From contig PALM01000027.1 of NCBI GenBank assembly GCA_002706365.1, positions 1 to 55,996 of the forward strand: a DNA stretch of 55,996 nucleotides, written 5' to 3'. The first letter of the stretch is position 1, and the number at the start of each line of letters is the position of its first letter. This document shows, in pieces, positions 1 to 51,566 of the stretch. The translations under genes were made by a program, and so were the position numbers. Origin of the DNA: Flavobacteriales bacterium (GTDB lineage: Bacteria; Bacteroidota; Bacteroidia; Flavobacteriales_E; Vicingaceae). The notes beneath the pieces are model-generated. The model was not told the DNA's origin. It worked only from the letters and a program-made list of their open reading frames with translations, and made no database searches.

Positions 1-328
1 CTAGACTTAAGAGTCGAACTAGTTCACCTTTACCCTCTTGGTTGTTCTAAATCAATCTAATTTATACCCATTAAATTTATCGATGCTAATCTAATAGCGA
101 AGTCGAAGTGTGAAAGATTTTAGAGCTTAGAGTTTAGATATTTGACAGGGCGTATAAGTTTATTGCTTCCAGTATCGAGTCCAGAGTAATTCACTGAATT
201 GAGCAGATTAATTTAAACTTGAAAGATTCAAAATTTCTGATCTCTGATTTCAGATTTCTGATTTGTCCAGCCTCTGGTCTCTGGTTTCTGGACTCTAGTC
301 TCCTTTACAATAATTCCTAATTTTAAAT
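1..328. other. Intergenic region rich in degenerate heptamer repeats
   Basis: No gene is seen here. The stretch holds a short GCGAAGTCGAAG element (97-108), a three-unit heptamer array TTAGAGC/TTAGAGT/TTAGATA (120-140), and a longer heptamer array near 235-302 ending about 27 bases before the first gene. A promoter for the gene at 329 must lie in or just after the array; I cannot place it with confidence. Confidence 0.6.
235..302. repeat. Heptamer tandem array (TTCTGAT / CTCTGGT type)
   Basis: Successive 7-base units can be read directly: TTCTGAT, CTCTGAT, TTCAGAT, TTCTGAT, TTGTCCA, then CTCTGGT, CTCTGGT, TTCTGGA, CTCTAGT. The units drift but keep the 7-base register. The array is one member of the dispersed family described in the findings. 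Confidence 0.75.
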
Positions 329-1594
329 ATGGTAAATAAGAAAATAAAAACACTATCCCTAAGCACTCTTGTTATAGGATGCCTCGTCGCTGCTTGCGCA
401 TGCAGAGATGAAGGAAATGATGAACCTATTGTACAAGAAGATGGTAATCCCATAGACACTCCGCTACTTCCGCCTGTAGAGACAAATCCACCGAATACCA
501 ATTATCAACCGGCTTTTGAAGGTCAAACAAGGGTTGGAGGGGTTGAAACACAAACCCAGATCAGTATAACTGAATTTGCTTCAGGACTCAACAATCCTTG
601 GGGTATGGCCAATCTTCCTGATGGCAGGATCATCGTCACCGAAAAGGGTGGAAATTTCAAGATCGTTGACCAAAGTGGAAACCTAAGCGCTGCAATTGGA
701 GGATTGCCAGCAGTGAACAGCTCGGGGCAGGGTGGCTTGCTGGATGTGGCCGTGCATCCCGATTTTAATAATAATCGCTTGCTTTACTGGACTTTCTCTC
801 AAAATGGTTCCGGCGGAACTGCTACAGCTGTAGCAAAAGGACAACTATCTAATGATGAGAGCCAGATACTCAATGCGCAAGTGATCTTTACTGCTTTGCC
901 CGAGTTCAATGGATCGAATCACTATGGTTCTAGAATCGTTTGGGACGCCAATGATAATCTGTTTATAAGTACAGGTGAGCGTTCTAGTGCATCCATTCGC
1001 GATGAAGCACAAGAACTTGATGCAGCCTTGGGTAAGATATTACATATAGATACCAATGGGAATGCAGTTGCTGGGAATCCATTTATCGTACAAGCAAATG
1101 CTTTGGACGAGATCTATTCTTACGGACATAGAAATCCTCAAGGTATGGATAGACATCCTGTAACAGGAGAACTATGGGCAGTGGAACACGGTCCAAGAGG
1201 CGGAGATGAGGTGAATTTGATTGAAGCGGGAAAGAACTATGGCTGGCCCGTGATCACCTATGGAATCGAGTATGGTGGTTCTCCGGTAGGAGCCGGTATT
1301 ACTCAGCAATCTGGAATGGAGCAACCCATTTACTATTGGGATCCGAGTATTGCCCCATGCGGAGCTAGCTTTTATTCAGGTAGTCTTATTAGCGAATGGA
1401 CCAATAATTTCTTTGTCACTGCTCTAGCCGGTCAACATTTGATCAGGCTGGTCATTCAAGGCAATAGAGTAGTAGGTGAGGAACGCTTGCTAGAAGGTGT
1501 TTCGCGCTTTCGCGATGTATTGGAAGGTACAGACGGGGCTCTTTATGTGATCGAGAGTGGCAGTAATGCGAAGATGCATAGGATTGGTATTTAG
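329..1594 (+). CDS. PQQ-dependent sugar (aldose) dehydrogenase, lipoprotein
   Basis: The 421-residue product belongs to the soluble glucose/sorbosone dehydrogenase (GSDH, YliI-like) six-bladed beta-propeller family, which oxidises aldose sugars with PQQ in the periplasm. Seen in the sequence: a lipoprotein leader with lipobox LVAAC (Cys near residue 23), a low-complexity Pro/Thr/Asn linker, then family motifs NNPWGMANLPDGR, GGLLDVAVHPDF, ALGKILHIDTNG, GHRNPQGM, EHGPRGGDEVNLI and GKNYGWPVITYG. Length is normal for the family with an added lipoprotein leader. The ATG at 329 is preceded by an AT-rich stretch without a clear Shine-Dalgarno, as is usual in Bacteroidota. It stands alone. Substrate is not predictable, and some family members lack proven PQQ activity. 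Confidence 0.88.
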   Translation: MVNKKIKTLSLSTLVIGCLVAACACRDEGNDEPIVQEDGNPIDTPLLPPVETNPPNTNYQPAFEGQTRVGGVETQTQISITEFASGLNNPWGMANLPDGRIIVTEKGGNFKIVDQSGNLSAAIGGLPAVNSSGQGGLLDVAVHPDFNNNRLLYWTFSQNGSGGTATAVAKGQLSNDESQILNAQVIFTALPEFNGSNHYGSRIVWDANDNLFISTGERSSASIRDEAQELDAALGKILHIDTNGNAVAGNPFIVQANALDEIYSYGHRNPQGMDRHPVTGELWAVEHGPRGGDEVNLIEAGKNYGWPVITYGIEYGGSPVGAGITQQSGMEQPIYYWDPSIAPCGASFYSGSLISEWTNNFFVTALAGQHLIRLVIQGNRVVGEERLLEGVSRFRDVLEGTDGALYVIESGSNAKMHRIGI

Positions 1595-1595
1595 T

Positions 1596-1620
1596 AATTA
1601 CGAATTACGAATTACGAATT
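1596..1620. repeat. Perfect heptamer array AATTACG x3
   Basis: Three exact AATTACG units and a partial fourth begin two bases after the stop codon of the sugar dehydrogenase gene and fill the gap before the convergent toxin gene. Confidence 0.8.
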
Positions 1621-1626
1621 TCAATT

Positions 1627-1962
1627 CTAATCCATATTTAGGATCTCATTCAAACTTCCCCTGAGTTCTTCCAATTTCGATGTAGAAATCTTGCCGATCT
1701 TATTCACTAGTCGGTCTCTTGAGATCGACCGCATATGCATAGCCAAGACTTCAGATTTCTCTTTGAGTCCATTCTTCTTATTAGGCTTGAGGATAAGATC
1801 TCCATGGTAGTCTTTGATCTTGGTGGTAAGCGGACAAACCCAGATTACAGGAGCATAGGTATTTAGCAAGTCGCCACTCACAATTAAGACAGGTCTATAG
1901 CCTTTCTGCTCACTCCCTTTTGTATCACCCAAACGAGCATTCCAGATCTCAGCTTTCTTCAT
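1627..1962 (-). CDS. mazF: MazF/PemK-family endoribonuclease toxin
   Basis: This 111-residue protein is the size of MazF/PemK toxins, sequence-specific mRNA interferases. Visible family features are the N-terminal IWNARLGDTKGSEQKGYRP segment with the conserved Arg-Pro, a VLIVS strand, the PLTT strand and the SEVLAMHMRSISRDRL segment that lines the active site. Its start codon lies inside the upstream antitoxin gene (14-base overlap), so translation is probably coupled and the antitoxin is made first. The toxin looks intact, with no frameshift or truncation. Its RNA target sequence cannot be read from the protein. Assignment to MazF is firm; activity is inferred. Confidence 0.9.
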   Translation of the reverse strand: MKKAEIWNARLGDTKGSEQKGYRPVLIVSGDLLNTYAPVIWVCPLTTKIKDYHGDLILKPNKKNGLKEKSEVLAMHMRSISRDRLVNKIGKISTSKLEELRGSLNEILNMD

Positions 1963-50415: not shown

Positions 50416-50482
50416 GATATGAGATGTGAAATATGAAATGTGAAAGAAGAGTTTAGAGCTTAGATTTTAGAGTTTAGACAGA
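50416..50482. repeat. Heptamer array GATATGA/GATGTGA and GAGTTTA/GAGCTTA
   Basis: Units GATATGA, GATGTGA, AATATGA, AATGTGA, then GAGTTTA, GAGCTTA, GATTTTA, GAGTTTA. Two sub-arrays with different motifs share the 7-base register. It faces the array at 50503-50537 in the other orientation. Confidence 0.75.
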
Positions 50483-50502
50483 TTTCGTTTATTCATCTAA
50501 AA

Positions 50503-50537
50503 TCCGGACTCCGGACTCCGGACTCTGGATTCTCAAA
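50503..50537. repeat. Heptamer array TCCGGAC x3
   Basis: Three exact TCCGGAC units (50503-50523) followed by TCTGGAT and TCTCAAA, ending 57 bases before the ATG of the SDR gene. Confidence 0.85.
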
Positions 50538-50594
50538 TCCTTTATAACTAAATTGCACTTCCTTAATAAAGGAGCTAAATAAAGGATTTAAAAT

Positions 50595-51365
50595 ATGAAC
50601 TGCATAGTAAGCGGAGCCAGTAGCGGAATAGGGAAGGAGATCTGTAGGTATCTTGTATCAAAAGGTCATAAGGTGCTAGCTATAGCCAGACGAGAAGAGC
50701 TTTTAATCAGTTTGAGGGAGAGCATACAACAAGAGGCTGAAAAATCAGAAATCAGAGATCAGAAATCAGAAATAGGCATTTTCGAGACTGAAAGTCGGCC
50801 TTGGTCTTCGGCCCCTGCCCAATTAAGTATTTTAAAAGCAGACTTATCACTAAGTAGTTCAATATATGATCTGAACCCCATTTTAAATGATTGGGGGCAG
50901 GTCGACCTCATTATCAACAACGCCGGCGCCCTAATCAACAAGCCCTTTCTAGAGACTACAGCAAACGAATTTATCGACCAATACCAATCCAACGTGATCA
51001 CCGCGGTGAATCTGGTCCATGCATGCGACCCTTATATAAAGGAAGGGAGTCATATAGTCAACATCAGCAGCATGGGGGGCTTTCAAGGAAGCAGTAAGTA
51101 TCCCGGCTTGGCAGCTTACAGCACGGCCAAGGGCGCCCTTAGTATATTGAGTGAATGTTTGGCAGAAGAGTATAAGGAAAGAGGAGTAAGCGTAAACGCT
51201 TTGGCCTTGGGTGCGGTGCAGACAGATATGTTGGCTGCAGCATTTCCCGGATTTGATGCCGGCTGTTCAGCAGAAGATATGGGCAAGTACATTGCCGAAT
51301 TTGCATTAGGCTCTGGCCGATTGATAAGTGGGAAGGTAATACCGGTGGCTTTGGGAAACCCTTAA
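50595..51365 (+). CDS. Short-chain dehydrogenase/reductase with a repeat-encoded insertion
   Basis: A 256-residue classical SDR. The NAD(P)-binding motif is VSGASSGIGKEICRYL, then NNAG near 107, the Ser in NISSMGGFQGS and the catalytic Tyr/Lys in YSTAKGA. The insert at about residues 48-76 (EKSEIRDQKSEIGIFETESR and PWSSAPAQ) follows the dinucleotide-binding helix. It is encoded by five AAATCAG-type heptamers (50742-50776) plus a TCGGCCTTGGTCTTCGGCC stretch, both of which recur just after the stop codon. Substrate is unknown. The insertion sits in a loop between Rossmann strands where variation is tolerated. Confidence 0.92.
   Translation: MNCIVSGASSGIGKEICRYLVSKGHKVLAIARREELLISLRESIQQEAEKSEIRDQKSEIGIFETESRPWSSAPAQLSILKADLSLSSSIYDLNPILNDWGQVDLIINNAGALINKPFLETTANEFIDQYQSNVITAVNLVHACDPYIKEGSHIVNISSMGGFQGSSKYPGLAAYSTAKGALSILSECLAEEYKERGVSVNALALGAVQTDMLAAAFPGFDAGCSAEDMGKYIAEFALGSGRLISGKVIPVALGNP
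50742..50776. repeat. Heptamer array AAATCAG inside the SDR gene
   Basis: Five units AAATCAG, AAATCAG, AGATCAG, AAATCAG, AAATAGG encode KSEIRDQ/KSEIGIF, a seven-residue periodic peptide. The TCGGCCTTGGTCTTCGGCC stretch follows at 50794-50812. Confidence 0.85.
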
Positions 51366-51566
51366 GCAAATCAGAAATCAGAAATCGGAAATCAGAAATC
51401 AGAAAGAGAGTCTAGAGTTAAGATCCTGGAAAGGTATTAAGCATAAGAATGTCGGCCTCGGTCCTCGGCCTCGGCCTAACATGATAGGTCTAAAGGAGTG
51501 GCAAAGTCCCTAATTGCCTCGAATTCAGAGCCGAAGAAAAATATCAAAATAAATCACCAAATTAAC
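51366..51566. other. Intergenic region before the rRNA promoters
   Basis: No gene. It opens with five AAATCAG-type units (51368-51402), has a GAGTCTAGAGTTAAGA stretch, then a GTCGGCCTCGGTCCTCGGCC array (51451-51478), and an AT-rich segment leading to the first rRNA promoter. Confidence 0.7.
51368..51402. repeat. Heptamer array AAATCAG x5
   Basis: AAATCAG, AAATCAG, AAATCGG, AAATCAG, AAATCAG, starting three bases after the SDR stop codon; the same unit as the array inside that gene. Confidence 0.9.

Follow-up and report, generated by a model that had tools for sequence, protein, structure and literature searches.

Organization of the heptamer arrays

Intergenic DNA of the window, the 55,996-nucleotide stretch of a Flavobacteriales genome analysed here, is rich in arrays with a 7-base period, and we tentatively read them as arms of miniature inverted repeats scattered around the genome, REP- or MITE-like in behaviour, and not as free-running microsatellites. 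The original prediction had named ten such stretches, and the periodicity is seen in 10/10, offset from its coordinates by no more than a few bases. In the 29 window gaps of at least 25 bp, lag-7 identity is 0.300 (z = 7.9 relative to 200 dinucleotide-preserving shuffles, which give 0.264 ± 0.0045). The gap set includes 4 kb of rRNA operon, expected only to dilute the signal; z for the remaining lags from 2 to 30 lies between −3.0 and +3.4 in these gaps, the latter at lag 21, a multiple of 7. Taking the window together with the long contig C20 (414 kb), there are 49 intergenic arrays of period 7 (94 per 100 kb) and 7 in coding DNA (1.9 per 100 kb), and each other period from 3 to 21 yields 0–3 intergenic arrays. 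Three successive TCTAGRY units have 179 exact matches in the genome, and the reversed pattern has 0. The observation of intergenic heptamer arrays is confirmed, and is stronger than originally stated. Altogether 834 kb of the 3.02 Mb genome was read: C20, known to hold matches, in whole, the window, in which the arrays were first noticed, and other stretches chosen for matches; from one fetched set of 106 stretches, those read were the 80 listed. Gene calls come from our own ORF script, a non-standard caller.

The arrays share a simple grammar. A TC dinucleotide (GA on the opposite strand) recurs at one fixed place per 7 nt, in all units of 142/162 arrays and in at least 75% of units of 153/162. 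Their most frequent form is 31 bp long, a module of four heptamers and 3 further nt, and several families follow the same grammar, among them TCTAGRY, TCTAANN, TTTCDGA, TTTCAYA and TCYGGNN. The RRRTCYR pattern first proposed for the units is too narrow: GARTCTA units fit it, and GARCCTA, AAATCAG and TCCGGAC do not. On both strands of 437 intergenic stretches, TC-anchor runs number 93 with 4 anchors, 111 with 5, 19 with 6 and 12 with 7–9, the longest having nine, where shuffling predicts 3.5, 0.45 and 0.05 for 4, 5 and 6. An anchor that stays fixed while the spacers vary across families, with five anchors the commonest number above three (and commoner than four or six), would suit binding sites of a DNA- or RNA-binding protein that reads TC or GA every 7 nt; that reading leaves the inverted pairs, polarity and copy clusters described below unexplained, and we think it very improbable.

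Within the window, TCTAGRY units form the TC-arms at 10870–10900 and 12967–12997 (plus strand; both (TCTAGRY)4TCT), the latter overlapped by a GA-arm of degenerate units at 12949–12979 (minus). A TCTAGRY GA-arm at 14004–14034 (minus) lies 3′ of the succinate-CoA ligase alpha gene, and a TC-arm of this family at 14108–14145 (plus) extends into the stop of the convergent T9SS-domain gene at 14143–15072. The TCTAGRY GA-arm at 37500–37523 (minus) and the TC-arm at 37504–37541 (plus), which ends 6 nt from the stop of 37548–38021, overlap in a palindromic arrangement with convergent ORFs on either side. A 31-bp TTTCDGA (F2) module at 234–264 (plus) is followed by F5-like TCTGGNY units with six TC anchors at 266–303 (plus), and AATTACG ×3.6 stands between convergent ORFs at 1596–1620. 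At 50420–50478 (minus) a TCTAANN module and then a TTTCAYA module together carry nine TC anchors; a TCCGGAC core with seven occupies 50496–50540 (plus), and an AAATCAG array (F2) lies at 51368–51405, 2 nt past the stop of 50595–51365. The stretches 235–302 and 13982–14032 each show an internal family switch or phase break.

Arrays beyond those originally listed are a 31-bp TCTAANN module (an alpha-type copy) at 115–145 (minus), which clusters with other 31-mers at no more than 2 mismatches; a TCYGGCT array at 8334–8364, within ORF 8009–9424 as called; a GA-arm of mixed units at 10646–10676 (minus), 3 nt past the stop of ORF 9524–10642 and in the same gap as the 10870 array; a TCTAANN TC-arm at 11602–11632 (plus), with a three-anchor GA-arm 11 nt upstream; a 31-bp TCYGGNN (F5) module at 38066–38096 (minus) in the divergent gap 38022–38324; and an AAATCAG array at 50742–50773, within ORF 50595–51365 as called.

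Location at gene ends and pairing of arms

The proposal that the repeats target gene ends holds in this genome, where arrays occupy 33/70 convergent, 75/279 tandem and 10/108 divergent gaps. TCTAGRY sits tightly at the stop (median distance 8 nt) and the other families loosely (medians 34–151 nt). In tandem gaps, 26/32 TCTAGRY GA-arms start no more than 25 nt past the upstream stop, and some TC-arms lie 4–21 nt before a start codon. The stop codon is TAG in 14/22 genes abutted by a TCTAGRY GA-arm and in 181/624 others (p = 0.0013). The gap preference is not seen in G099, another genome of the survey described below, with arrays in 0/21 convergent, 1/59 tandem and 2/23 divergent gaps.

Arms are frequently paired, and the pairs are polar. 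Both arms belong to the same family in 21/39 GA–TC pairs, against 6.4 expected, a value that 0/5000 permutations attained. Among arms of families F1, F3, F4 and F5, with a partner of any family, 71 follow GA-then-TC order and 0 the reverse; this tally counts arms, so that one pair may count twice. The pair count, made anchor-free, gives 19 with the purine arm first and 2 reversed, and only 6 to 1 within C20 and the window. Reverse order occurs in 5 unclassified arms (14 paired) and 2 TTTCDGA arms (18 paired), and two gaps hold TCTAGRY in T-then-G order. Because the purine (GA) arm is mostly 5′ and the pyrimidine (TC) arm 3′, a strand can form an imperfect hairpin: its TC bases pair, the three positions after them pair for the most part, and the final two do so at roughly the random rate. 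Inverted intergenic pairs at gene 3′ ends, as in REP/BIME and REPIN elements, are present, and many arms are unpartnered (23/79 TCTAGRY and 23/43 unclassified arms have no detected partner).

It is possible, if rather doubtful, that the host itself maintains these elements, selection for an imperfect stem-loop behind genes keeping the heptad grammar and copying being occasional. The location of the arrays, in convergent and tandem gaps and, for TCTAGRY, close to the stop, would fit such selection, as would equal arm lengths in 12/22 pairs (6.6 expected, p = 0.0058). Other observations argue against it: arms fold better with arms taken from other elements than with the partner beside them (TCTAANN 6/6, TCTAGRY 5/8), partly because copies share both arms; separate terminator-like hairpins are visible by eye in some of the same gaps; and G-T and A-C mismatches at arm positions 3–5 are about equal (18 vs 22), so that nothing points to RNA pairing; no G-U preference is seen, and selection at the RNA level is unsupported. 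The role that host selection would give the hairpins is transcript 3′-end stability or insulation between neighbours. Selection for mismatch at the two variable positions was also considered (identical in 10/56 TCTAANN cases vs 38%, p = 0.0025, and in 17/56 TCTAGRY cases, p = 0.035) and is claimed for neither family; the TCTAANN signal was dropped because the arms derive from a small number of ancestral arms and the pairs are not independent.

Copying differs between families

The clearest evidence for dispersal comes from TCTAANN, whose 26 modules (one per array) give 23 pairs within 2/31 mismatches, compared with a mean of 2.7 (maximum 8) under column shuffling and 5.1 (maximum 12) under unit shuffling; of 27 pairs counted initially, 4 joined overlapping registers within one and the same array and were dropped. 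The flanks of these copies differ at 6–15 of 15 bases per side, and at 4 on one side of one pair. Modules of the TCTAANN family descend from shared ancestors and now lie in unrelated flanks, which argues against host selection. TTTCAYA gives 10 close pairs against 3.9 expected (p = 0.002). Among 56 TCTAGRY arrays, 21 pairs have identical codes against 10.4 (p = 0.007; half-swap null p = 0.024), in a family with only 8 two-state positions. No copying signal is seen in TTTCDGA (11 close pairs vs 14.7 expected) or TCYGGNN (0 vs 0.3), so that copying in every family is not borne out, and the fact that these two share the grammar all the same is a point in favour of host-kept hairpins. An initial set of 140 pairs counted TTTCDGA arrays on both strands, with no grammar-matched null, and was not used.

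The original suggestion of a mobile family is supported for TCTAANN, less strongly for TTTCAYA and weakly for TCTAGRY, and is unsupported for TTTCDGA and TCYGGNN; near-identical copies in unrelated flanks, a feature of MITEs, follow the same division. Together, the grammar-matched copy test and the negative families lowered our confidence in dispersed elements. Neither a mover nor a target-site duplication was found for the arrays, and no boundary mapped cleanly; the genome has 3 Y1_Tnp matches, one with an internal stop, whose relation to the arrays is one of co-occurrence only. If the arrays are dispersed inverted repeats as we prefer, families other than TCTAANN would have spread likewise, through a trans-acting activity that places modules or hairpins between genes by copying or moving them. 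Modules would persist where they are harmless, at gene ends, and TCTAGRY may there supply a stop codon and a putative 3′ hairpin.

Array length and polymerase slippage

Slippage, the other origin first suggested, would make the arrays long heptanucleotide SSRs that were point-mutated later. According to citations in PMC4679880 and PMC4692102, heptamers outnumbered every other long SSR class in most genomes of a 2007 survey and have since been regarded as the most frequent long microsatellite unit of bacteria, with slippage hypothesised. In this genome a few arrays do have five or six identical units (TCTAACA ×6, TCCTTAC ×5), and identical neighbours exceed the family shuffle in F2 (23 vs 10.9) and F0 (22 vs 1.8). 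Perfect TCTAGRY arrays, on the other hand, fall off sharply past four units (56 of exactly four, 4 of five, 3 of six) and do not follow the open-ended length distribution expected of slippage. Nor do their perfect runs show the unit identity of an SSR, with 26/179 identical neighbours against 45 by family shuffle; the within-array values are 0/24 vs 4.4 for TTTCAYA and 7/78 vs 10.6 for TCTAANN, and a wider TCTAGRY set has 31/250 vs 41 (p = 0.04; within arrays p = 0.18, not significant). The TCTAGGT-type arrays of Shewanella, Pseudoalteromonas and others look quite different, with 546/600 identical neighbours and up to 22 units. Overall we consider slippage improbable: it does not suit the main families, in which TCTAGRY stops at four mostly unlike units, and may act on minor ones (TCCTTAC, TCTAACA, and the excess in F2 and F0). 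Avoidance of identical neighbours was likewise rejected as a general rule, as it holds in perfect TCTAGRY runs, F3 and F4 and fails in F2, F5, F0 and within arrays of the wider TCTAGRY set.

Relation to known repeats

Cyanobacterial STRRs and trnL P6b are degenerate heptanucleotide repeats, lying in P6b on both sides of the stem, and the arrays here are like them, by description only, in being degenerate heptamers. REP/BIME, REPIN and MITE elements are small inverted repeats, found at gene 3′ ends with promoters avoided, and dispersed as copies in unrelated flanks. REP/BIME and REPIN elements are moved by a cognate RAYT transposase, and MITEs are marked by a target-site duplication and a clean empty site. 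The elements here are alike in form and placement, with dispersed copies for TCTAANN and TTTCAYA, and differ in having arms built of heptamers.

The original prediction knew of no named equivalent in Bacteroidota, but TAACTGA heptamers are reported in five Bacteroidetes, with other heptamers alongside in Gramella and Aequorivita (MacGregor 2015, PMC4679880). As described there, these are likewise intergenic arrays, of identical units mostly just upstream of starts in a Beggiatoaceae genome; those here have heterogeneous units, mostly about four, with TCTAGRY behind stops and not, as a rule, just upstream of starts in sense orientation. Closer still are the GGGANTN heptamers of Xanthomonas campestris and X. 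axonopodis (Rehm et al. 2015, PMC4692102), described as having five fixed and two variable positions, four units in most arrays (up to 26), inverted pairs in 70 and 75 cases, and 89–93% intergenic location at a mean of 28 nt past the 5′ ORF, with 7–8% between divergent ORFs. By this published description, four-unit heptamers with two variable positions, inverted pairing, placement behind ORFs and scarcity in divergent gaps are common to both. The anatomy is already in print. Xanthomonas units are G-rich and quadruplex-capable, and the authors tie the four-unit preference to G-quadruplexes (PMC4692102); here several unit families occur in one genome, and TCTAGRY, TCTAANN and TTTCAYA units contain no GGG on either strand. 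A quadruplex basis is rejected on this ground, and four-unit TCTAGRY arrays need another cause.

A further reading, which we regard as unlikely, is that heptad-armed hairpins form one intergenic element class across phyla (Bacteroidota here, Xanthomonas in print), with the 7-nt step and the arm of four units and 31 nt set by the machinery that produces or mobilizes them. Such machinery might, for example, synthesize or recognize in 7-nt steps a hairpin with a purine 5′ arm, the unit sequence being free to drift or be replaced while the architecture stays constant; the quadruplex explanation for Xanthomonas would be mistaken on this reading. Short modules of fixed size, often paired and of many sequences, separate architectural elements from slippage arrays, so far lumped together. 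They open the reasons for 7 and for 4 to tests outside G-rich sequence, with TCTAGGT arrays of Shewanella and relatives as a ready contrast to the TCTAGRY modules.

Distribution in the congener and the class

Comparison of orthologous gaps, as originally proposed, shows that a congener (250 kb sampled, 3/20 stretches chosen for matches) differs in array presence, absence and unit family, consistent with mobility. Junction c20:134724 is 112 bp long in this genome, compared with −4 bp in the congener, with flanks too diverged to reveal a duplication; another measures 4 bp here and 92 bp, including a heptamer array, in the congener. Both species have an array in 5/22 orthologous gaps (tallied by hand), with different unit families in two of these, and two orthologous TCTAGRY arrays, selected for still fitting the family in both species, differ at 7 positions, every one of them a transition at a variable R/Y site; each of these results would also fit hairpins kept by the host.

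The system is not confined to the genus, and its wider distribution is uneven. Among 295 genomes of the class, a number have more TC-anchor runs than a reversed control and others have fewer; in the genome studied here (G000) the recurrence of CT within TCTAG at 7-nt steps raises the control, so that this survey alone is only a hint. In the stretches read, period 7 is absent or nearly so (0–1 arrays) in G279, G272, G259, G222 and G320. Ten further members of the family were sampled at no more than 40 kb each: 6 have no intergenic period-7 array, 3 have 1–4, mostly AT-rich, and the tenth, G011, has none, but gene calling failed there. TCTAGRY ×3 occurs in 2/60 relatives, this genome counted, the TCTAANN hairpin pattern in 1/295 genomes, this one, and TCTTGRY-like hairpins in 2/295, of a single genus. 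Period 7 is prominent in the stretches read of G319 (11 arrays, other periods at most 1) and G099 (7, others at most 1), and G224 has 20 such arrays, but also 11 of period 15. Inverted pairs in G319, G224 and G099 have the purine arm first in 7/7 cases, 5 of them from stretches chosen for matches.

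A seven-base period in intergenic DNA

The original prediction, that tandem heptanucleotide arrays occupy many intergenic gaps, held against dinucleotide shuffles. Lag-7 identity in the gaps of the window was 0.300 versus 0.264 in the shuffles (z = 7.9), and no other lag from 2 to 30 was comparable in the same test. The seven-base period was confirmed in all ten stretches it had singled out; two of these are interrupted internally by a switch or phase break. Across the window and C20, a long contig of the same genome (414 kb together), we found 49 intergenic arrays of period 7, with 0–3 for each other period from 3 to 21, and 7 period-7 arrays in coding DNA. 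The window also contains a T9SS sorting domain (TIGR04183), which fits Bacteroidota.

In 834 kb of the genome, 162 intergenic lag-7 arrays were counted, 142 of which carry TC (GA on the other strand) at a constant place in every unit. The second-best fixed dinucleotide, AG/CT, reaches 91/162, a score that is partly a by-product of the commonest unit. As runs of at least four at a spacing of seven, TC leads with 235, followed by AG/CT (175) and TA (170); at other spacings TC runs number at most 46, with the maximum at spacing 14. Five anchors are commonest among runs of at least four, which equals four heptamers plus 3 nt, a module of 31 bp. By unit sequence, the runs divide into families F1 (TCTAGRY, 87 runs), F2 (TTTCDGA, 44 runs, counted on both strands since this unit reads TC on either), F3 (TTTCAYA, 11), F4 (TCTAANN, 24) and F5 (TCYGGNN, 22), with 47 unclassified (F0).

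The size of the module is nearly constant. Perfect (TCTAGRY)n arrays ending in TCT number 56 with exactly four units, 4 with five and 3 with six in the whole genome, counts derived from 73 and 10 overlapping matches. Slippage would be expected to yield identical neighbouring units and long arrays, as found in 80 loci from named genomes among the matches listed, where 546/600 adjacent units are identical and the longest array has 22 units. In the perfect TCTAGRY runs of our genome only 26/179 neighbours match, fewer than the 45 that a family shuffle gives. Among the matches listed, the four-unit pattern occurs in Shewanella, Pseudoalteromonas, Vibrio, Photobacterium and several MAGs; near-pure arrays of the TCTAGGT type, the longest with 22 units, occur in the first three genera and in scattered MAGs.

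Paired arms and gene ends

Many arrays are paired as the purine (GA) and pyrimidine (TC) arms of a predicted imperfect hairpin, and both arms belong to one family in 21/39 pairs, with 6.4 expected. The GA-arm mostly precedes the TC-arm. For F1, F3, F4 and F5 the arms with a partner are GA-first 71 times and TC-first 0 times; the figures are 18 and 2 for F2 and 14 and 5 for F0, and a listing from three anchors upward holds two gaps with F1 in TC-then-GA order. Counted free of the anchor, pairs were 19 GA-first versus 2 reverse in the genome, 6 versus 1 on C20 plus the window, and 7 versus 0 in three other Bacteroidia genomes. Arm spans are equal in 12 of 22 pairs (6.6 expected). Pairing is 94–97% at TC, 61–71% at the next three positions and 26–28% at the last two, so the strand could form a stem of short helices interrupted at 7-nt steps. 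Heptad hairpins of CAAGA-NN / TCTTG-NN, with variable positions mostly R-Y, were also seen in G260 and G147, two genomes of one other genus.

Arrays of at least four anchors occupy 33/70 convergent, 75/279 tandem and 10/108 divergent gaps (convergent versus divergent, p = 2e-8). Among gaps of 60–150 bp the figures are 7/13, 25/91 and 0/51, and when arrays on C20 plus the window were detected free of the anchor, the counts were 12/30 convergent versus 3/56 divergent (p = 1e-4). Small samples from three other Bacteroidia genomes agree only in part, with convergent, tandem and divergent occupancies of 3/16, 12/56 and 2/17 (G224), 1/4, 6/31 and 0/8 (G319), and 0/21, 1/59 and 2/23 (G099).

F1 lies closest to genes. 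In convergent gaps its GA strand is the sense strand of the nearer gene in 26 of 28 arrays, and in tandem gaps 26/32 of its GA-arms start no more than 25 nt from the stop, and several overlap the stop itself; the other families are more distant (medians 34–151 nt). TAG is the stop in 14 of the 22 genes abutted by an F1 GA-arm and in 181/624 others, an excess suggesting that the stop codon may come from TAGA in the array itself.

Dispersed copies and orthologous gaps

One 31-mer per array was compared within families, with pairs of at most two mismatches called close and column and unit shuffles as nulls. The 26 F4 modules form 23 close pairs, in clusters of nine, five and two, versus 2.7 (maximum 8) in column shuffles and 5.1 (maximum 12) in unit shuffles. 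Their flanks are unrelated. F3 has 10 close pairs versus 3.9 (p = 0.002) and F1 shows a weak copy signal; the same test gave no excess for F2 (11 versus 14.7) or F5 (0 versus 0.3). Two elements, c1:9779 and c8:31313, share both arms, oppositely oriented: one arm is identical, the other differs by one base, and the loops between them are different. Together with the F4 pairs and their unrelated flanks, this indicates that F4 modules, or hairpins that retain their arms but not their loops, were copied. Because F4 arms are copies, the mismatch between arms that had earlier looked selected is not independent evidence.

A congener (median identity 65% over 72 reciprocal best hits) offered 40 orthologous adjacent gene pairs, 22 of them with a gap of at least 30 nt in either species. 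Arrays are present in both species in 5 of these gaps, in our genome only in 3, in the congener only in 2 and in neither in 12 (p = 0.05). One convergent junction spans 112 bp in our genome, with a GA- and a TC-arm when one missing anchor is tolerated, and has overlapping stops in the congener; one tandem junction measures 4 bp in our genome and, in the congener, 92 bp that include a heptamer array. Two further gaps hold a different unit family at the same site. In two F1 arrays common to both species, all 7 of 7 differences are transitions at variable R/Y positions, a constraint that is unproved because the arrays were selected for still matching F1 in both.

Copying in F4, arrays present in one species and absent from the other, and their location are all features of a small inverted-repeat family. 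Three Y1-type transposase matches in the genome, one with an internal stop, make these enzymes a candidate mover, as a lead only. Hairpins at gene ends would be tolerated, and might be useful to the host as putative 3' stem-loops. A hairpin selected by the host is a serious rival to copying, because the families that lack a copy signal follow the same grammar. The mismatch spectrum of paired arms showed no preference for RNA over DNA pairing.

Relation to known repeats

From the published description, a close match in anatomy is the GGGANTN heptamer of Xanthomonas, which is intergenic, prefers four units, occurs in inverted pairs, and lies close behind the 5' ORF with few arrays between divergent ORFs (Rehm et al. 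2015, PMC4692102). Those authors tie the four-unit preference to quadruplex formation; unlike GGGANTN as described there, the main units in our genome lack G-tracts. TAACTGA arrays are described in five Bacteroidetes (MacGregor 2015, PMC4679880). Among the listed titles and abstracts on heptamer, heptanucleotide and STRR repeats in the open-licence literature, we found no description of 31-bp heptad modules in Bacteroidota.

Other repeats share some of these gaps. A palindrome-like repeat of CCTTCGACTNCGCTCAGG type, perhaps a REP of Y1-type transposases, occurs at 10643-10869 of the window and in several C20 gaps, sometimes within or next to a heptamer arm. At C20:64978-65256, three AAATCGG/AAATCAG arrays form part of a larger tandem repeat whose step is about 110–125 bp, in a gap that also contains a tRNA-like sequence. 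In the window, a short TCGGCC-type repeat of period 6 (51452-51477) adjoins a heptamer array, and an rRNA operon at 52003-55996 comprises 16S, two tRNAs and a 23S cut by the window end.
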